Below, one piece after another: positions 4,394-13,257 of a stretch of 17,110 nucleotides of DNA. Where the stretch lies: positions 1 to 17,110 of the forward strand of contig CAKTKB010000023.1 in the NCBI GenBank assembly GCA_934569195.1, given 5' to 3'. The position numbers and the translations under genes were made by a program. Numbering within the stretch: the first letter of the stretch is position 1; each line of letters starts with the position of its first letter. The notes below the pieces were generated by a model that worked only from the letters and a program-made list of their open reading frames with translations, searched no databases and was not told where the DNA came from. The DNA comes from an uncultured Oscillospiraceae bacterium (GTDB taxonomy: Bacteria > Bacillota > Clostridia > Oscillospirales > Oscillospiraceae).

Positions 4394-7300
4394 TTACTTC
4401 ACAAAGTAATTCAGGAAGCGCACCAGAATGGCTGCTACCTGCGCGCGCTCCGCGTCGCTGCGTGCGTTCAGCCGGATTGCATCGCCGTCCTGGACGCCGG
4501 AAACCAGTCCATCCGCGACAGCCCAGGCCAGAGCGTCCTGTGCATAGCCGCTGACCTGATCGCCATCCGCGAATACATTCAGATTTGCGGAGTGGCTGAC
4601 GTCATAGCCCTTGTAGCGAGCATACCGGTACAGGATGGTCACGACCTGCTCCCGGGTAACGGGCGCATTGGGATCGAACCGATCCTTCTCTACACCGGCT
4701 ACGATGCTCTGCTCGGCAGCCCAGCGTACGGCATCGGTGTAGTACTTACCGGCGGGAACGTCTGTGAAGGGATTTTCTGCATCGGTCAGGGGGCTGCCCT
4801 CCATCCGCCAAAGCACGGCCACAAGCATTGCCCGGGTCATGGTTTCGGTGGGAGCAAAGGTAGTCTCCGAAGTACCGGCAAAGAGATTTTCCAGCACAGC
4901 GCGGTCCACGGACTCGTGGTACCACTTATCTGCGGATACGTCGGTAAACTTCTCGCTGGGGCAGCCGTCTCCGCCGTCGCAGACAGACAGCTTCTCAACG
5001 GACTCGGTCCGAGTCTCGCCGCACTGTGTGCAGGTATAGGTCATTTCGCCCTCTGCATAGGCAGTCGGCTTCCGAGTGAGTGTACCCTCGTCCCAGGTGT
5101 GGCCCAGAGCGGGAATGGCCTCAAGCTTGGTTTCTCCGCACTGTGCGCAGGTGAAGGAACGGATTCCGGCATGGACGCAGTCTGCCTGGCCGATCACGGT
5201 GCCCTCATCCCAGCTGTGGCCCAGAGGCTGAAGGATCTGTGCAATATAGCTGTAATCGCAGTTCTTGCAGGAGTAGATCACATAGCCGTAGGTCGTGCAG
5301 GTGGCCGGGGTCGTCTCCTCGGTCAGGTCGTGCTCCGTCTTGGGAATGGGCTGCGTGTAGCTTTCGCCGCAGCCCTCGTGGGTGCAGGTGAAGGTCAGCT
5401 CGCCCTCCTCCGTGCAGCTGGCTTCCTTGGTAACGGTCTGCTGGAAATCATGATCCAGCGCGTCCGTGAAGCTGTCCACATAGCTTTCGCCGCAGACGGC
5501 GCAGGTGTGGGTCGTATAGCCCATCTTATCACAGGTGGGCTCGGTAACGACGGACTTGTAATCATGGCCCAGAGCCTCCGTAATGCCGTCCACATAGCTC
5601 TCGCCGCAGACGGTGCAGGTGTGGGTCGTGTAACCGATGGACGTGCAGCCCGGCTTCGTCTCCGCGCTCTCATAGGTGTGCTCCGTCCGGGCAATGACCT
5701 CGATCCGGCTTTCGCCGCAGCGGGAGCATATGTAGGTCATTTCGCCCTCGGCCGTGCAGGTGGCAGCCTTGGTTACGGTGCCCTCGTCCCAGTCGTGGCC
5801 CAGGGCCGCAACGGTCAGCGTTTCCTCCATACCGCAGTAGCGGCACACGCCGATCATTTCGCCGGCTTCCGCACAGGTTGCCTCCCGAACGATCGTCCAG
5901 TCGCTGTAAACGTGCTTTCCGGCTGCGCAGTCCTTCAGATGCACAATTAGATCCTCGGCCGCAGTCAGCTCCGCATAGCGGGTGACATAGTGCTTCTGCA
6001 GCTCCGTCAGTGCGTCGTAGGCGGCCCGGGCTGCGCGGATGGCATCCTCCCGGTCCAGTGTGACCGTGCCGATGGCCTCGATCTGTGCATCCACCGCAGC
6101 GGCAGCTGCACGGTCCGCCTCATCCGTCGTCAGATAGACCAGGCGGAGAATCGTCTTAAGGGACATACCCGTGTCCTGAACGTAAGCAGGAGCGTCGCCA
6201 AAGAGCTCGTCGCCGGACACGCCGTCCAGACCGAAGGCGACCGTCCCGGCCTGCTTCATCCGGAAGGTGAGGGTGTCCAGGAGAATCCGGCCGTCTGCGT
6301 CCGCCGTCAGCTCGGCGCCCTCAGCCGGTGTCAGAATGCGCATGACGCTGCCCTGAGCACAGCGGTCCTCAAAAGTCAGATTTTCTGCCGCCTGTGCGCC
6401 CAGCAGCTCCATAAGCGCCGTGTCGTAGGTCAGGCTGTAGCCGACCGTTCCGGCGGTGGTCGTGCCGGTCAGATAGACCCGTGCGGTTACCTCCGCGCCC
6501 TGGGTGAAGGTGTCCCGATCCAGCTCCACGGTGATTTCCGCAGTGGGCAGAGCCTCTGCAAAGACGGGGTAGGGGTCCACGCCGATGCGCTGGACATAGG
6601 CGTCGCCCAGCAGGGCCAGGACAGTACCGTCAGCGAATTCCTCCGCCGTCCGGGTCTCGGCCTTTCCGGCAGTGTCCTTGCCGATGGAGTTCGTCGCACC
6701 CACGGCCTTGATATTTTCGTTGTAGCTATAGCAGTTGCTCCACTTGTTGGCCATTGTATATCCCGTCAGGCCGCCAACATTTTTGAAGGGGCCGACCAGT
6801 TCTACGGCTGCATAGCAGTTCTGCGCTGCGGTAGTAATCGCACTGGAGCCGGTCAGACCGCCGCAGTAGGTTGCGCTGGCGTTGCCCTTGTTGCAGTAGA
6901 CCGTACCCTGGGCATAGCAGTTGATAAAGTCCAGCTTGCTGGTCATATTGCCGATCAGGCCGCCGGCATTCTGCCGCGCCGCAGTGTTATAGGATGCCAC
7001 GGTGATATTCGTGCGGCAGCGCCGGATTGTGCCGGCATAGTAGCCGATCAGGCCGCCGACATCTTTTCCGCCGATAACAACGCCTTCGTAGCTGCAGTTT
7101 TCGACCACAGACGCGTCAGAACCATAGCCGACGATACCGCCGACACGGTCTGTCTCCTGACCACCCACATAGCGGTCCTGCACATGCAGGTTCTTGACGG
7201 TGCCATCAAGGTTGCCGAACAGGCCGAACTGGCTCGCGATTTCCCCTGCCGGGAGGTACAGGCCGGAGATGGTGTGGCCGTTGCCGTCAAACGTACCGGT

Positions 7301-10300
7301 GTACTTGGTGCCATTCACGATCGTGCCATAGCTAATGGGCGCGATGATCCGCAGGTTATTTGTCGATGCCGCGCTGGGCAGCAGGGTATCATCCAGAGAG
7401 GCAAGCAGATTTTCGTTGATGGTGATGTCGTTTGTCAGAATCGCGTTGGCTGCGTTATTCTGCGCCGTGCCCGTGGGCAGGGTGCCGTTCACCAGGCGGG
7501 CAAACCAATCGAGCTGATCGACATTTTCCAGGATGTAATACGTCTCGCCGTCGATTTCCTCGGTCCGCATGGTCTTTTCCGTCTCCTCGATCGGGAGCCG
7601 ATCAGCGTCCTTGAGGGCCTGCTCATAGTCGGCGTAGTTGGCAATCCTCGACGTATCGCCGCCGCGCTGGGTATAGGCCGCCAGGTCTGCTGTCAGAGCG
7701 GGGAGAAGCTCGATTTTGGCCAGCGTCATGGGGGTTACGGTCTTGATTTCGGCAACAAGCTGGTCAATGACCGCCTGCTCCGCAGCCAGTGCCGCCTCCA
7801 GGACGGGTACATTGGTTACCTGGGCGCGCTCTTCCTCGGAAAGCGCCTGATAGCATTCGTTTGCCGTAGCCAAGTTGGTGAAGCAGTTGTCCGTGCCGTC
7901 CAGTGCGACGGTGCCGATGGCATCGATCAGCGCAATGGCGACCTGGGCGGAAGCGTTGGCGTACGTGCCCTTTGCAAAGTAGACTCTATTATCAGCCGTG
8001 CGGAACATCGGGTGATCGTCCACGCCGATGCGCTGGCCGAAGGCATCGCCCAGCCGGTAGGCCAGCTCGCCGCTCGTCATCATTTCACCCTGGATTTTTC
8101 CGCCGCCGATCTGCTCCGCAGGATCACGGGACAAGTCGCTGACGCACTCCAGGCCATCGACATTGGGATAGTAGCTGTTTTCGATTACCGTACCTGTGCC
8201 GTTCAGGACACCCGCAATCGCGCCCTGGAAATAGGCGGGGCCGATCTTGCCGGAGACAAAGCAGTTCTTGATCTGCACTTTGCCGTAGTTGTGGCAGCTG
8301 ATGCCGCCCAGACGGTATATCTGCTGGGTCGTCGTATACTCGGTGTCCTCCAGGCTTATGTCTGCAATGCAATAGCAGCTGTCGATCAGCGCGCCAGAAT
8401 TGGAGGTATTCACCAGGCCGCCGGCCCAATACTTGCCGTAGAGCTTGCCTTCAAAGCCGCAGCGCAGCAGCTTCGCATCCTTGTTCACGTAGTAGGCAAG
8501 ACCTGCAACGTGGAAGCCCTGGGTATAGGCATCCTTGAGCACCAGATCCTTAACGGTGCCGTTGACATTGATAAACATGGCGTCGCCGTCATGCTCATAG
8601 CTTTCGACAGAGCTGTAGTAGATCGCACCGGAGATGGTGTGGCCGTTGCCGTCAAAGGTGCCGTCCAGCGTATCCATCATGGGCAGGCGGGTGAGCTTAT
8701 CCAGCTCGTCTGCCTTTACCGCGCCGTTCTCATCCAGCAGCGTGGCCAGGAGATCTTTGTTGACGGTGATGTCCGCCGTCAGGATGGCATTGGCCGCCGT
8801 ATTGCGATCCTTTGCAGTCAGCGTGCCGTTCAGGAGGCCGATGTACCACTGCAGCTGCTCCAGGTTGGAGATCGCGTAATAGGGCTGGCCGTCAATGGTC
8901 TTGATCTCGATGGTCTGCTCGACCTTGCTCTCCTTGTCCGCCTGGACGCACTTGGCATAGGCTGCCTCGGCTGCGGTAAGGGTCGCGTAATTCGTCACAC
9001 GGTCCGCATCGCCGCCCCAGGCAAGGTAGCGGTCATAGGTACCGCGGACTGCATCCAGCGCGTCCTTGCTGTCCAGGGTGATCTCCCCAAGGGCATCAAT
9101 CCGGGCAATCAGGGCGTTTACTGCGGTATTGTAATCCGCCTGCTTCTGCGTGAGAACATCCAGCTTGGTAACCTTTGCCTGCTCGGCTTCCTCCAGCATA
9201 TCGTAGCAGTCCTGGGCCGCAGTGATGTTGCCAAAGCAGTTCTCCGTCCCGTCCAGGGCAACCGTGCCGATGGCGTCAATCATCAGGTCGCAGGTCTCCG
9301 CGGAGGCGTTGCGCAGGCTGCCGCCCGCCATAAAGACGCGGTTTGTGCCGTCGGAGAAAACGGGGTTGGTGTCCACACCCAGCTTCTGGCCGAAGGCCTT
9401 GCCCAGCAGCCAGGCCACGGTGCCGTCCCGGAACTCCGCAGTCGTCTTGGTGACGGTGTTGCCGGTAGCCGTGCTGGCGTTTACATCCAGGCAGTAGGAC
9501 GGGCCGTCCAGGATGTCCGCCAGGCTTGCAATGCCGAAGGTCTCCGGTGCCTGCATGATGCCCAGGGCGTAGCAGTTACGGACGACGGCAGATGTGTTGG
9601 TCGTCAGGGTAATACCGGCTGCCTGCTTTGCCGCCGTCAGATCGGCGAGGGAATAGCAGTTCTCAATCAGGTAGTTCTTTCCGGTGCAGCCGCCGGTAAT
9701 GCCGGATACCGACCCCTCTGTGGATGTGGCGCTGCCGCGGAAGCTGCAGCGGCGAATGGTCAGATCATAGCTAAAGCCGCCGCCATGGATGCCGCCTATA
9801 TCGCTGGCAGCCTTCAGAGATGCGTTTACGGAGCAGTCCTCAATCGTGCCATAGCCGATGCTCATAATGCCGCCAACATACTCAACCGTGGTGTTTTCCG
9901 AAATCAATGTACCGGTAAACGAAGCATTGCGGACGATCGACTTGGTAGACTGGGCGGAGGCGACGATACCGCCGGCATAGGTGGTGGCCCGAATCTGTCC
10001 CTGGAAGGAGACGTCCTCAAGCAATATCCCGGAGCCGCTGCCGACGATACCGCCAACCTCTCCGCCGCTCAGGTAAGAATCCGTTACATGCACATTTTTG
10101 ACGGTTGCGTTTGGAGCGTCGCCGAACAGGCCCATATGGCCTTTCCAGTATGCCGTCCGGACCAGACCGGAAATGGTGTGTCCCTGGCCGTCAAAAATAC
10201 CCTCAAAGTATGCCGTGTGGCTTGTCGCACCGAAGCCCTCGCCGGAGGTCCAGGTATAGCCGCCGATAGGCGTCCACTGGCGCCAGCCATTCTGCTTTGT

Positions 10301-12661
10301 CAGGTTGCCATCCGCATCCAGGACATGCTCGTTAAAGACAATGTCCGCATCCAGCAGAGCGTTGGCGCTTTCCTGCCGGGCATCCCAGCCGCCGGACAGC
10401 TGACCGTTGACCAGCTTTGCAAACCAGATCAGCTCGTCCGCGTTCTTGATGACGTAGTATTCCTTTTCGTCCACAGTCCGCTTTTCGATCGTTGCTTCGA
10501 CCTGGGCAAACAGCAGCGACTCATAGGAAGCCTCCGCGTCCGTCAGGACCTTCAGCTGCTCCGCCGTGACCAGGTTCTTTACGCCCTCGGGCGCCTCGTC
10601 GTAGGCCAGCCGGGCCGCGTCGATCTTTGCCTTGCATGCGTCGGTCAGCGTGACCTCTCCGATGGCGTTGATCTTCTCCACAATGGCCGCCGCCCGATCG
10701 GGGTAGTCGGACTCGATGACGGAGAAGGTGACGTCCTGGAAGCTGCACCAATAGTTGGTTGCCTCGGGGGAGTCGTCGCCCTTGTAGTTGCCTCCCTCAC
10801 TCTGGGGGCTGAGGGACAGGTGCGTATCCGGCGCGGAACCGAATGCGCCCAGGTGAATCCGCACGTTGGAAACGGTGAAGTTTCCCGCCGTGGTCGGAAT
10901 GACCTGCAGGCCCGCATTTTCCTTGATGCCGTACTGGGTGCCTTCACCGCTGACGGTCGCAATTTCCTTGCCGTCGGCATTCAGCAGGGTGCCTTCCAGG
11001 TAGGTGGTGTTGCCGTAGCCCGGGTTGTAGATGGCGCCCAGCTTCGGCTGAGGCGTGGTAACGTTGGAATAGGCGACCTTGACGGTCTCACCGGCGCAGA
11101 TCTTCTGCCCGGGGTTCGTAACATTCTGCACCGTCACATCGCTGTTCACCGCGCCCAGCACGTAGCAGCGCATGGCGTCGCCCGCCTGGACCTTGACGAT
11201 GTTGCGGCCGCCCTTCAGGTTCAGGGTATAGGTGCCGTCAGCGTTGGCAGCCACTCTCGTCCAGGACGATGCCTTGGACGTGGGATAGCCGTTGACGTTC
11301 ATCAGGCTGACGGTCAGGCTCTGGCCATTTTCCGCCGTGGGCTTGATGGTGGTGGGGATGGAGGTATTGGTGATGACGTCCTCATAGCCGTCCATCTTTA
11401 TCGTATTGGCAATGTAGAAAGTGTTCAGGTCGGACAGACCCTCCAGGCCAGTGGTGACGCCCTCCCGGTTGCCGTCGACCATAAAGGCATAGACCGCGAC
11501 GCTGTCGCCATTGATCGCGCCATAAACGGTGTCGTCAAACTCCATGGCGTCGTAGGTCAGCGCCACAATGGACAGGCCCGGCTTCACAGCCTTGACAATG
11601 CCGTACTCGTCCACCGTTACGGAGTCGCCCTCAAGGATGTAGTAGTGCTTGTCCGGCTCCAGATAACCGTTGTTCAGGCCGTTGTTGATTGCCTGCCAGG
11701 CACGGGAGGACCAGGAACCGAAGGCTTCGCCCTGCTGCAGAGAGATAAACTTGGAGGCGTTGCCGTTGGTGATGATGCTGGCCTCATAGGTGCTCTCGTG
11801 CATGTTGGGAGTTTCCTCCAGCTTGTCCACCGTGATGCTCAGGCCGGCCGTGGGGGAGAAGGTGTGGGCCTTCTTCATATAGCCGTCCTTGGAAACGACA
11901 TAGTAGACGTCGCCGCCGGAATTCGTGGGGGCCTCGGCAGTGTAGTAGTCATAGCCGTCCTCCGTCTTGACGAAGGTGGTCTTGAACTGGTTGTTCTGCC
12001 GGTAGAATTTGACCAGCTCCTCCACCTTCAGGGTCGCCCCGGCGGGAATCTTGAAGGAGACGGTGGTTTTTCTGCCGATGTTGTAAGCACGGCCATCGGA
12101 CAGGTTGAAGCCAGAGGCCTTGAAGCCCTGGAAGGTCTCCGTGCCCGGCATGGACCAGAGATTTCCATAGAAGCCGCAGTAAGTCTCGTCCGTCGGCTCA
12201 CAGAAAAACTGATAGCGCACGTTATACCCGTAGGCCGGGACGAGAACGGATGCGCTCTGCTTGTCCGTCGTAACGAGAGACTCGCAGACGAGGGACGTAT
12301 CCTCGGTGTTTACGATGCGCATTTTGAAATCCGTCCGGGCATCCTTCACGCTATAGGCAATCAGGCGCAGATAGACATCAGCGTCACCCGTGACCTTGAT
12401 CATACCTGTGCCGGTGGATTCGTTGCGGTAGGTGTAGGTTCCCGCATCGCCCCGGAAGGCAAAGGTTGTGTAGTCGCCGGAGGTTCCTTTCTCCAGCTCT
12501 ATCTCTTTTCCTGCCGCATCCGTAACCGTCAGCGACTGGACCGCTGCGTAAAGCGTCACCCGGTATGCTCCGGATTCCTCCGAAGCCGCCAGCGCGCCTG
12601 TCGGCAGCATGCCTACCACCAGCACAAGGGCCAGCAGCAGGGCAAAAATACGTTTTGTCAT
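4394..12661 (-). CDS. Giant secreted S-layer-homology surface protein with GLUG beta-helices, cohesin-like domain and C..CxxC repeats
   Basis: A 2755-residue exported protein. Residues 1-26 form a clear Sec signal peptide (MTKR, an Ala/Leu/Val core, then GALAA). Residues 27 to about 650 are Ig-like, including a Big2-style VDEYGIVKAVKPG strand-turn near 350. Three modules follow, each with an IDGxxYYxIxNxxQLxWF-type lead-in, an FDGxGHTISG entry (about 824, 1334 and 1791), a run of GLUG repeats (GGI/GLxG, ENCY) and a closing FGQxxGVDxxPVF. Helical hairpin spacers (IDAIGTVALD type) lie at about 655-715, 1128-1240, 1579-1690 and 2184-2240. Residues about 2040-2170 look like a cohesin fold. Eight C..CxxC repeats (about 2247-2560) precede three SLH domains (about 2572-2753), which anchor the protein to cell-wall polymer. 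The start has AAAAGGAG but a long 13-nt spacing. There are no frameshifts. A cobalamin-type riboswitch and terminator lie in the leader, implying corrinoid-repressed expression. The ligand is unknown; GLUG and cohesin-like parts suggest adhesion or protein docking. Confidence 0.95.
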   Translation of the reverse strand: MTKRIFALLLALVLVVGMLPTGALAASEESGAYRVTLYAAVQSLTVTDAAGKEIELEKGTSGDYTTFAFRGDAGTYTYRNESTGTGMIKVTGDADVYLRLIAYSVKDARTDFKMRIVNTEDTSLVCESLVTTDKQSASVLVPAYGYNVRYQFFCEPTDETYCGFYGNLWSMPGTETFQGFKASGFNLSDGRAYNIGRKTTVSFKIPAGATLKVEELVKFYRQNNQFKTTFVKTEDGYDYYTAEAPTNSGGDVYYVVSKDGYMKKAHTFSPTAGLSITVDKLEETPNMHESTYEASIITNGNASKFISLQQGEAFGSWSSRAWQAINNGLNNGYLEPDKHYYILEGDSVTVDEYGIVKAVKPGLSIVALTYDAMEFDDTVYGAINGDSVAVYAFMVDGNREGVTTGLEGLSDLNTFYIANTIKMDGYEDVITNTSIPTTIKPTAENGQSLTVSLMNVNGYPTSKASSWTRVAANADGTYTLNLKGGRNIVKVQAGDAMRCYVLGAVNSDVTVQNVTNPGQKICAGETVKVAYSNVTTPQPKLGAIYNPGYGNTTYLEGTLLNADGKEIATVSGEGTQYGIKENAGLQVIPTTAGNFTVSNVRIHLGAFGSAPDTHLSLSPQSEGGNYKGDDSPEATNYWCSFQDVTFSVIESDYPDRAAAIVEKINAIGEVTLTDACKAKIDAARLAYDEAPEGVKNLVTAEQLKVLTDAEASYESLLFAQVEATIEKRTVDEKEYYVIKNADELIWFAKLVNGQLSGGWDARQESANALLDADIVFNEHVLDADGNLTKQNGWRQWTPIGGYTWTSGEGFGATSHTAYFEGIFDGQGHTISGLVRTAYWKGHMGLFGDAPNATVKNVHVTDSYLSGGEVGGIVGSGSGILLEDVSFQGQIRATTYAGGIVASAQSTKSIVRNASFTGTLISENTTVEYVGGIMSIGYGTIEDCSVNASLKAASDIGGIHGGGFSYDLTIRRCSFRGSATSTEGSVSGITGGCTGKNYLIENCYSLADLTAAKQAAGITLTTNTSAVVRNCYALGIMQAPETFGIASLADILDGPSYCLDVNASTATGNTVTKTTAEFRDGTVAWLLGKAFGQKLGVDTNPVFSDGTNRVFMAGGSLRNASAETCDLMIDAIGTVALDGTENCFGNITAAQDCYDMLEEAEQAKVTKLDVLTQKQADYNTAVNALIARIDALGEITLDSKDALDAVRGTYDRYLAWGGDADRVTNYATLTAAEAAYAKCVQADKESKVEQTIEIKTIDGQPYYAISNLEQLQWYIGLLNGTLTAKDRNTAANAILTADITVNKDLLATLLDENGAVKADELDKLTRLPMMDTLDGTFDGNGHTISGAIYYSSVESYEHDGDAMFINVNGTVKDLVLKDAYTQGFHVAGLAYYVNKDAKLLRCGFEGKLYGKYWAGGLVNTSNSGALIDSCYCIADISLEDTEYTTTQQIYRLGGISCHNYGKVQIKNCFVSGKIGPAYFQGAIAGVLNGTGTVIENSYYPNVDGLECVSDLSRDPAEQIGGGKIQGEMMTSGELAYRLGDAFGQRIGVDDHPMFRTADNRVYFAKGTYANASAQVAIALIDAIGTVALDGTDNCFTNLATANECYQALSEEERAQVTNVPVLEAALAAEQAVIDQLVAEIKTVTPMTLAKIELLPALTADLAAYTQRGGDTSRIANYADYEQALKDADRLPIEETEKTMRTEEIDGETYYILENVDQLDWFARLVNGTLPTGTAQNNAANAILTNDITINENLLASLDDTLLPSAASTNNLRIIAPISYGTIVNGTKYTGTFDGNGHTISGLYLPAGEIASQFGLFGNLDGTVKNLHVQDRYVGGQETDRVGGIVGYGSDASVVENCSYEGVVIGGKDVGGLIGYYAGTIRRCRTNITVASYNTAARQNAGGLIGNMTSKLDFINCYAQGTVYCNKGNASATYCGGLTGSSAITTAAQNCYAAVELVGPFKNVGGLTGYTMANKWSNCYSYNENIKAVGATNSIGKDTAGKAETRTAEEFADGTVLALLGDAYVQRIGVDPYPVFAEALPTAEITVELDRDTFTQGAEVTARVYLTGTTTAGTVGYSLTYDTALMELLGAQAAENLTFEDRCAQGSVMRILTPAEGAELTADADGRILLDTLTFRMKQAGTVAFGLDGVSGDELFGDAPAYVQDTGMSLKTILRLVYLTTDEADRAAAAAVDAQIEAIGTVTLDREDAIRAARAAYDALTELQKHYVTRYAELTAAEDLIVHLKDCAAGKHVYSDWTIVREATCAEAGEMIGVCRYCGMEETLTVAALGHDWDEGTVTKAATCTAEGEMTYICSRCGESRIEVIARTEHTYESAETKPGCTSIGYTTHTCTVCGESYVDGITEALGHDYKSVVTEPTCDKMGYTTHTCAVCGESYVDSFTDALDHDFQQTVTKEASCTEEGELTFTCTHEGCGESYTQPIPKTEHDLTEETTPATCTTYGYVIYSCKNCDYSYIAQILQPLGHSWDEGTVIGQADCVHAGIRSFTCAQCGETKLEAIPALGHTWDEGTLTRKPTAYAEGEMTYTCTQCGETRTESVEKLSVCDGGDGCPSEKFTDVSADKWYHESVDRAVLENLFAGTSETTFAPTETMTRAMLVAVLWRMEGSPLTDAENPFTDVPAGKYYTDAVRWAAEQSIVAGVEKDRFDPNAPVTREQVVTILYRYARYKGYDVSHSANLNVFADGDQVSGYAQDALAWAVADGLVSGVQDGDAIRLNARSDAERAQVAAILVRFLNYFVK
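4985..5930 (-). repeat. Eight tandem C..CxxC (zinc-ribbon-like) coding repeats
   Basis: Within the surface protein, eight units of about 38-41 residues follow the pattern xATCxxxGxxxYxCxxCGESxxxxIxxxGHDW. Units 3 and 4 are the most alike, also in DNA: about 5470-5525 and 5587-5642 differ at only a few bases, a sign of recent duplication or conversion. Unit 5 has a widened CxxxxC, unit 6 reads CKNCDYS instead of CxxCGES, and unit 8 has lost its first Cys (TAYAEG). This points to decay toward the SLH side. The Cys/His pattern could bind zinc or form disulfides outside the cell. Confidence 0.85.
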
Positions 12662-12674
12662 TTTTGCAGTTCCA

Positions 12675-12682
12675 CTCCTTTT
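12675..12682 (-). promoter_or_regulatory. Ribosome binding site of the giant surface protein, unusually far from ATG
   Basis: AAAAGGAG lies 13 nt before the ATG at 12661, longer than the usual 5-9 nt. No other in-frame start codon lies between it and the signal peptide, so the ATG is still the best start. Confidence 0.6.
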
Positions 12683-12707
12683 CTATTCTGTTTATGATAA
12701 AGTATCA

Positions 12708-12722
12708 CTGAATGCGATTCAG
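12708..12722. repeat. Perfect palindrome CTGAAT-GCG-ATTCAG before the surface protein gene
   Basis: Six-base arms around a 3-nt centre, 46 nt upstream of the ATG and downstream of the leader terminator. In the minus-strand RNA it includes GAAUCGCA, which is complementary over 8 nt to UGCGAUUC in the riboswitch's predicted L5 loop (12915-12922). It could be an operator, a small RNA hairpin, or a docking site for the loop. Confidence 0.4.
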
Positions 12723-12759
12723 AAATACGTATATCTTCCATATATTGCGATTTGATGCA

Positions 12760-12797
12760 AAAAATAGGCTTATATCGCCGACATGGCGATATAAGCC
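12760..12797 (-). terminator. Intrinsic terminator of the riboswitch expression platform
   Basis: On the minus strand GGCTTATATCGCC, a 5-nt loop ATGTC and GGCGATATAAGCC form a perfect 13-bp stem (12767-12797), followed at once by TATTTTTTG. It lies about 100 nt upstream of the surface protein ATG, after the cobalamin-type aptamer, and no gene ends just before it. It therefore looks like a conditional leader terminator rather than the end of an operon. Confidence 0.85.
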
Positions 12798-12816
12798 CAA
12801 TAATCCCAGTAAAATA

Positions 12817-12826
12817 GGGCGATCCC
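12817..12826 (-). other. Small hairpin, candidate L13 / antiterminator element
   Basis: In the minus RNA this reads GGGAUCGCCC, able to form a GGG/CCC hairpin with loop AUCG. Its AUCGC can pair with GCGAU of the L5 loop (a kissing contact). Alternatively its AUCGCC can pair with GGCGAU in the 3' arm of the terminator (12774-12779). That gives the two exclusive states expected of a cobalamin switch that terminates transcription. Confidence 0.45.
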
Positions 12827-12845
12827 GGTGTCGGCAGGAACGTTT

Positions 12846-12973
12846 CAGGCAGTCCGGCGTATCTGACTTATTCTCGCTCCGGTGGAGGAGACATCACAGT
12901 GACCCACTCGCGGGGAATCGCACCCCATTCCGCTTGCTTTCATCCGTTTCACGAAGGAAAGCGGGACTGTCTG
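12846..12973 (-). promoter_or_regulatory. Cobalamin-type riboswitch aptamer
   Basis: In the leader of the surface protein gene, the minus RNA closes with a 10-bp stem: CAGACAGTCC (12964-12973) against GGACTGCCTG (12846-12855), one G-U pair. Inside are hallmarks of the cobalamin family. GGAAT is followed by the L5 hairpin GGGGTGCGATTCCCC (about 12911-12925). An AGTG/CACT hairpin ends in TCACTGTGA (12894-12902). A shortened B12-box-like AAGTCAGATAC (12859-12869) comes just before the 3' closing strand. The long P7-P12 arm of the classic type, with its second CCACTG and GGGAAGG, is reduced to a small CTCC/GGAG hairpin, so this resembles the compact (class II-like) cobalamin aptamers. It is preceded by an extra hairpin at 12985-13012. 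Family assignment is from memory of the consensus. Confidence 0.75.
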
Positions 12974-12984
12974 ACTATATGTAG

Positions 12985-13012
12985 TTGTGCGCGGGCGGTC
13001 CGCCGCCCACAA
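12985..13012 (-). other. GC-rich hairpin at the 5' end of the leader RNA
   Basis: TTGTG/CACAA outer arms and GGCGG/CCGCC inner arms around a CGGA loop, with a CGCG bulge. It starts about 10 nt after the predicted transcription start and precedes the aptamer. It has no U-tract and is probably a 5' stabilising or peripheral riboswitch stem. Confidence 0.5.
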
Positions 13013-13027
13013 AATCTCGTATAGGTT

Positions 13028-13056
13028 ATAATAACACATAGCCATAGATATTTCAA
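13028..13056 (-). promoter_or_regulatory. Sigma-70-type promoter of the riboswitch leader and surface protein gene
   Basis: Minus strand: TTGAAA (-35, 13051-13056), a 17-nt spacer, TATTAT (-10, 13028-13033). Both boxes match consensus well. Transcription would begin near 13021, giving a leader of about 360 nt with hairpin, aptamer and terminator before the ATG at 12661. Confidence 0.75.
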
Positions 13057-13228
13057 GAATTTTAAGTGTAAAACTGTATTTTCTCCGGCGCTGCATCCAG
13101 AACGAACTGCTCCGTTTCTCATCGTCGTTTCAGGATATTGAGCGCTGTGTTTTGGCAGCCTTATGGGAACAAGGCAATCCGGCAAAAGCAAAGCGGGGAA
13201 GGTATGCGCCGCTGCGTATTCCACCGTG

Positions 13229-13257
13229 TTGACAGGCCGGATGTATCCTGATATAAT
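13229..13257 (+). promoter_or_regulatory. Perfect-consensus sigma-70 promoter for the thioesterase-rsmE operon
   Basis: TTGACA (13229-13234), exactly 17 nt, TATAAT (13252-13257), with the start expected near 13264, about 50 nt before the thioesterase ATG. It is divergent from the riboswitch promoter; the stretch 13057-13228 between them shows no gene or clear element. Confidence 0.85.

Follow-up and report, generated by a model that had tools for sequence, protein, structure and literature searches.

A putative divergent subtype of the cobalamin riboswitch upstream of a giant surface protein gene in an uncultured Oscillospiraceae bacterium

Cobalamin riboswitches serve to read B12 regulons from genomes. 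Rfam describes their aptamers by models of one clan, among them RF00174, RF01482 (the adenosylcobalamin or AdoCbl model) and RF01689 (the AdoCbl-variant model), and the junction J6/3 is one of the elements that contact the ligand. According to the part of PMC9600662 available to us, P2-L2 belongs to the canonical architecture, and the contact between L5 and L13 adjoins the corrinoid tail in published structures. On the protein side, bacterial transcobalamin-like proteins have been predicted to be B12 scavengers and the origin of the animal ones (Burroughs et al. 2007, PMC1796856); in the portion of that paper at hand, those of the SLBB/DUF4430 type combine a toroid with SLBB and are encoded in operons with CbiO/CbiQ. 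According to the accessible part of a 2014 paper (PMC4350170), transcobalamin-type proteins carry DUF4430 at their C-terminus. Here, we analyze a leader on a stretch of 17,110 nucleotides (contig CAKTKB010000023.1 of an uncultured Oscillospiraceae bacterium; the whole stretch is called the window in the following), which precedes the gene for a secreted surface protein of 2755 residues. We consider it likely that a divergent subtype of the cobalamin (corrinoid) riboswitch controls this cell-wall protein by transcription attenuation.

A family of leaders and its kinship to canonical switches

The leader runs on the minus strand from 13056 to 12661. Promoter, aptamer and P13-like hairpin are followed by a terminator with a stem of 15 pairs and by a ribosome site, and then by the giant gene (Table 1). 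Rfam 15 yields zero matches in the window at E ≤1. Relatives were collected with a pattern of three ordered blocks (GGTGCRATTCC, GGGYCACTGTGA and GTCAGATAC), scanned against a collection of 84,980 species and 257 billion bases. Just four stretches carry it, L001-L004, whose bins are titled Clostridiales, Defluviitaleaceae, Oscillospiraceae and Bacillota and which we take to be of termite-gut origin, judging by their isolate codes. They show no Rfam cobalamin match at E ≤1, and their genomes are without RF00174 above its gathering cut-off of 31.5 bits. A first covariance model, R1, was built from 5 sequences and run on 394 genomes of one order (E ≤0.01, 7 candidates scored per genome), with matches in 24 genomes, some of them weak. 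One R1 match, L034, is a canonical switch (113 bits). The second model, R2, comprises 31 cores from R1 matches and three-block pattern loci. The window scores 84.6 bits on R2, being itself among the 31 building sequences, and retains the columns that are invariant across the variant family.

The structure is borne out by compensatory changes. In 30 distinct rows (alignment A4, structure drawn by hand), 98.5% of the cells are paired and covariation amounts to 0.497, against 0.148 (standard deviation 0.016) after shuffling, while slid-structure controls pair at most 48%. In 101 distinct rows (alignment A5, itself fitted to the model), the pairing is again 98.5%, covariation is 0.512 against 0.155 (standard deviation 0.008), and both sides are altered in 14 of 16 pairs. 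By pair counts and controls, this is a fold of the cobalamin type, with P3, P4-L4, P5 and a P6 junction in which L4 and P6 are conserved. A rare block pattern, together with compensatory changes in 31 aligned cores, confirms that the leader is real and beyond chance.

An earlier note on this DNA, made from the letters alone, had described the leader as a cobalamin-type riboswitch. All motifs quoted there were located: GGAAT at 12931-12927, GGGGTGCGATTCCCC at 12926-12912, TCACTGTGA within 12903-12894 and AAGTCAGATAC at 12869-12859. The promoter (10/12), the perfect terminator and the ten-pair closing stem were found as well, the latter, by folding, with its ten pairs around one internal mismatch (P1, TCAGACAGTCC at 12974-12964 with GGACTGCCTGA at 12855-12845). 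Promoter and terminator are each weak alone, since the same scan finds on average 1.0 promoter and 0.8 terminator in the shuffled 801-base region. Folding energy gives a moderate signal for the aptamer stretch by itself (z -1.68, 7 of 200 shuffles equally good); with the terminator included, the leader reaches z -3.72. Smaller intervening open reading frames (ORFs) aside, the next recognised same-strand gene after 12661-4394 is 3176-2448.

The distribution of the variant was studied in a sample of 350 genomes of one family (E ≤0.01, 13 candidates scored per genome). R2 matches 190 of them; canonical switches are probably present in the weak tail. With a threshold of 60 bits, 132 matches are left in 91 genomes, with a maximum of 8 per genome. 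Matches down to E 1e-8 occur in 10 of 291 genomes sampled across the class (two above 70 bits) and in 9 of 299 sampled across the phylum (four above 70 bits), both samples containing the centre genome G347. The variant is concentrated in one family, though restriction to it is not proven.

Compared with RF00174, the variant has the same order of the P3-P6 core, the L4 motif, the CACTGT..AGYCAG of P6 and P2-L2, and downstream of these a P13/L13-like hairpin and a terminator; it also shares the B12 regulon. It departs from the consensus in J3/4, which is GGAAU (GGAAT in 119 of 134 members at the DNA level), in L5, which is mostly GUCGG (GTCGG followed by T in 77 of 134) and not C-rich, in J6/3, which is mostly AUAC (ATAC in 108 of 134) where RF00174 has AGA, and in the short accessory region of P6. 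The clan members RF01482 and RF01689 are without match at the window.

How deep this divide is can be read from the scores. On R2, 132 of the 134 rescored variant matches reach 68-95 bits, against at most 32.6 bits for 10 canonical switches, three of which are unmatched. The space between is not empty. L029 aligns end to end (1-189) with RF00174 at 31.2 bits (E 1.4e-6), 0.3 bits under the cut-off, and L024 reaches 23.6 bits. Among nine class-wide R2 matches (42-75 bits), four exceed Rfam cut-offs at the same place, three for RF00174 and one for RF01482: L197, L198 and L200 lie at 46-50 bits with R2 and at 38-45 bits with RF00174, L203 at 42 bits with R2 and at 63 with RF01482, and L198 joins the variant's CGGUCACUGUGA to a canonical-looking CAGGAUACC. 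For L195, L196, L199 and L201, no cobalamin model matches at E ≤0.1; the sole Rfam match of L202 is a sub-threshold RF01482 elsewhere in the sequence, and RF01482 is also sub-threshold at L005. Many further R2 matches at 44-66 bits are found in the one-family sample. The intermediates populate the score gap, and therefore the variant grades into the known cobalamin family. We note that L197, L198, L200 and L203 sit outside or at the edge of the main family.

These intermediates, the near-match of L029 and the canonical overall architecture could mean that the variant is just the outlying end of a continuous cobalamin family, lost to Rfam by divergence and functionally ordinary. We regard this as unlikely in view of the window, which lies far below the cut-off, of the score distance between the bulk of the variants and the canonical switches, and of L5 and J6/3, which are unlike the consensus in most members. 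Judged by its relatives, we assign the RNA to the cobalamin riboswitches, as a divergent subtype which escapes Rfam at the window locus.

Genes downstream of the variant

The 134 R2 matches, after exclusion of two weak second hits (42.7 and 21.5 bits) and of 18 without an ORF passing the filter, gave 114 first genes including that of the window. 107 of them were scanned, the window being treated separately and one duplicate and five spurious-looking genes (by eye; L117, L144, L166, L167, L177) being left aside. The choice of the first ORF was automatic, and some first genes are possibly wrong. Pfam tallies cover the best 25 families per set and are raw counts without genome-wide background. 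Among the matches listed, DUF4430 occurs in 33 first proteins and SLH in at least 30, followed by TP_methylase and CbiK (5 each), CbiQ (3), and CbiD, CobT-type DBI_PRT phosphoribosyltransferase, the Cys-rich small domain and Peripla_BP_2 (2 each). The top NCBIfam match of the TP_methylase proteins is cobM_cbiF (1.2e-102). The variant family precedes genes of cobalamin synthesis and transport, although the window's own gene is not of that kind, and very likely works in a corrinoid regulon, as far as gene content can tell. Two of the CbiK cobalt-chelatase carriers are probably the predicted secreted proteins with SLH-like repeats at L103:1322-3202 and L129:904-2778; an anchored extracellular chelatase would be odd.

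Behind the variant, L001-L003 encode secreted proteins with SLH, DUF4430 or squalene-cyclase-like toroid domains. At L001 a CbiQ-type gene is next (35.7 bits, cut-off 25), and L003 has a weaker one (24.1 bits) along with an ABC/ECF gene; the first gene of L004, incomplete at the stretch end, is without DUF4430 by Pfam. For the L003 surface protein, residues 355-745 were modelled with AlphaFold (predicted local distance difference test, pLDDT, 85.7; predicted template modelling score, pTM, 0.70). The model matched 15 PDB chains at E <0.001 (3.6e-9 to 1.2e-7), all of them transcobalamin, intrinsic factor or haptocorrin.

In 20 genomes chosen for holding the variant, 18 also hold RF00174 above cut-off, and none of the 53 variant matches overlaps any of the 87 RF00174 matches. 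Two loci, L014 (G328) and L091 (G441), carry tandem leaders on the same strand, in which the variant is followed by a terminator (by eye) and a canonical RF00174 switch. This coexistence, and a J3/4, L5 and J6/3 that depart from the consensus while L4 and P6 are kept, would suit a descendant of the cobalamin switch which now senses something else, as a second input beside the canonical switches; the ligand could be a different form of corrinoid, a precursor (for example cobinamide) or a molecule of an unrelated kind. We hold this to be rather unlikely: many downstream genes are those of an ordinary cobalamin regulon, and L001-L003 leaders precede toroid/DUF4430 proteins in genomes without RF00174 above cut-off, and therefore the variant can stand alone. 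Unlikely, too, is the more far-reaching idea of a riboswitch class in its own right, which would have arisen from the cobalamin aptamer by rebuilding of J6/3 and of the L5-L13 contact and would sense a different corrinoid state or form than the canonical switch of the same cell and drive a corrinoid-scavenging layer of giant SLH proteins, with the tandem leaders as two-input gates. The variant may bind the usual ligand or a different one.

Two further neighborhoods were observed. At L016:1071-1324 (-), a canonical RF00174 switch lies on the strand opposite to the variant, some 180 bases upstream of it, an arrangement that would suit two divergent transcripts each under B12 control; at L029:2551-2622 (-), a NiCo riboswitch shares the strand of the variant and precedes it by about 1 kb.

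The proposed switch and the giant surface protein

A terminator-like structure occurs within about 260 bases of 110 of the 134 matches, against a mean of 13.0 of 134 in random stretches of the same loci, and behind many variant cores stands a hairpin whose loop resembles CTGCCG..ACCGG. Between L5 and L13, one position can pair in 75 of the 106 rows in which both elements were recognised (28 of the 134 rows were dropped for want of one of them), a value not reached in any of 5000 permutations; counted on distinct combinations, 14 of 27 pair (p 0.008). Terminators were reported for 37 of 38 functional cobalamin switches in the available part of PMC9600662, which is consistent with OFF control of the variant. 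The variant probably acts as an OFF switch. When corrinoid is plentiful, the aptamer would bind it, L5 would dock with L13, the terminator would form, and the giant protein would not be made. When corrinoid is scarce, the terminator would be bypassed, for which we infer an antiterminator. The window gene would thereby join a corrinoid-supply regulon of intrinsic-factor-like surface proteins, ECF-type transporters and corrinoid synthesis genes.

Table 1. Features of the leader and its gene in the window
Feature	Position	Strand	Basis
Promoter TTGAAA-17-TATTAT, TG before -10	13028..13056	-	scan, 10/12
P1 5' strand (TCAGACAGTCC)	12964..12974	-	fold + position check
P2-L2 hairpin, 5' of core	12936..12963	-	fold; similar hairpin in L001-L004 (by eye)
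Aptamer core, R2 match 84.6 bits	12852..12935	-	covariance model R2
J3/4 GGAAT, P4 GGGG/CCCC, L4 TGCGATT	12912..12931	-	alignment + pair counts
P5 (GA/TC), L5 GTGGG	12901..12909	-	alignment + pair counts
P6 (CTG/CAG) with inner hairpin, J6/3 ATAC	12859..12899	-	alignment + pair counts
P3 3' strand (GC) + P1 3' strand (GGACTGCCTGA)	12845..12858	-	fold, pair counts, positions
P13-like hairpin, loop TGCCGACACC (L13)	12820..12842	-	stem drawn by eye; likeness in many members
Intrinsic terminator, 15-pair stem (12799-12765) + TTTTTT run	12757..12799	-	scan
Regulated gene, 2755-aa secreted surface protein	4394..12661	-	ORF + domain searches

The protein itself has a signal peptide and CxxC-type repeats (both by eye), an Ig-like N-terminal region and a C-terminal SLH. 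Regarding the domains proposed in the earlier note, SLH stands (E 3e-20), while GLUG stays sub-threshold (17.6 bits, cut-off 20.5) and a cohesin-like domain is absent from the Pfam matches up to E 10. DUF4430 and an alpha/alpha toroid are likewise missing from these matches. Residues 27-690 are predicted to form a chain of Ig-like beta-sandwiches. Proteins with this N-terminal region are encoded behind the variant at 12 loci, and homologues sharing it often carry DUF4430, including P0010 of similar length. In the reverse search from the protein, which covered 14 loci, the variant lies upstream on the same contig and strand in seven; at one more, a canonical RF00174 precedes the gene by about 154 bases. 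As the variant family often precedes SLH/DUF4430 surface proteins, the suggested corrinoid control of a surface protein is supported and turns out to be recurrent, and the giant protein is assigned to this recurrent class under putative variant control. By eye, residues ~2290-2546 hold repeated CxxC-type modules near the position of P0010's DUF4430 and another repeat.

For the class, corrinoid capture is the best guess; for the window protein itself, capture appears plausible, and we put a corrinoid-related job at somewhat short of an even chance. It may also act as a scaffold or adhesin. The string of Ig-like beta-sandwiches at its N-terminus, the SLH anchor and the missing DUF4430 would fit an adhesin for corrinoid-producing neighbours or mucus which does not bind corrinoid, a possibility we hold to be less likely than not, given that homologues with the same N-terminus, such as P0010, often have DUF4430.

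Several observations weigh against the corrinoid switch and its proposed target. No match to the cobalamin families, including RF00174, RF01482 and RF01689, is found at 12740-13070 (331 bases) with E up to 10, and none of the 31 cores of R2 exceeds an Rfam cobalamin cut-off. The window's L5, GTGGG, stands opposite GCCG and gives a G-G, so that the commonest L5-L13 pairing is absent, and no antiterminator was identified for the window leader. For many first genes behind the variant, a connection with B12 is not evident (AP_endonuc_2, AraC regulators, histidine kinases). The fold matches of L003 over both domains have TM-scores of 0.41-0.54 and root-mean-square deviations of 9-13 Å, and therefore its two domains do not superpose together. 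In the window protein, domain searches detect no corrinoid-binding domain, as the earlier note had already stated, and structure searches with the model of residues 27-690 list generic Ig-like chains and no B12 binder. At L165 and L171, two of the 12 forward loci, a canonical switch is nearer to the gene than the variant; among the remaining reverse loci, four have no switch above threshold, one contig ends early, and at one a canonical switch is found at a distance of about 1.2 kb upstream.

The Rfam scan of the leader had been proposed in the earlier note as a check, and its negative outcome is formally the result named there as refuting. The claim of a cobalamin-type riboswitch is nonetheless carried by the relatives: members or near-members align with Rfam cobalamin models and B12 genes follow many members, and because the relatives link the RNA to cobalamin switches, the null at the window is overturned. 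The missing Rfam match and antiterminator could also mark a relic, a dead switch left by promoter capture before an unrelated gene. This is highly improbable, as the window keeps the family-invariant columns and an intact terminator, and similar proteins are encoded behind this RNA in other species as well.

Beyond the switch, a strong GC-rich hairpin (GGGCGG-cgga-CCGCCC, ~13007-12992, minus strand) opens the leader, and a perfect promoter, TTGACA-17-TATAAT with TG before the -10, lies at 13229-13257 on the plus strand, divergent from the leader and ahead of thioesterase and RNA-methyltransferase genes.

Comparison with known surface B12 proteins

In the open-licence papers covered by titles and the starts of abstracts, no description of the variant subtype was found. 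Rfam misses the subtype at the positions tested, and R2 finds it at 60 bits or more in 91 of the 350 genomes sampled from one family; the B12 regulons of those genomes are therefore probably under-read. The word 'riboswitch' is absent from the available text of PMC1796856. Set beside the available part of that paper, the variant adds regulatory evidence for the 2007 prediction that Gram-positive transcobalamin-like surface proteins scavenge B12: surface proteins of the SLBB/DUF4430 kind treated there follow the variant RNA, the window protein differing from them in its lack of DUF4430. Surface capture of B12 in gut bacteria, as proposed here, is also the role ascribed in abstracts to BtuG/BtuH and to the DUF4465 surface binders of Bacteroides; these are lipoproteins of another phylum, and the likeness drawn here is one of described role.

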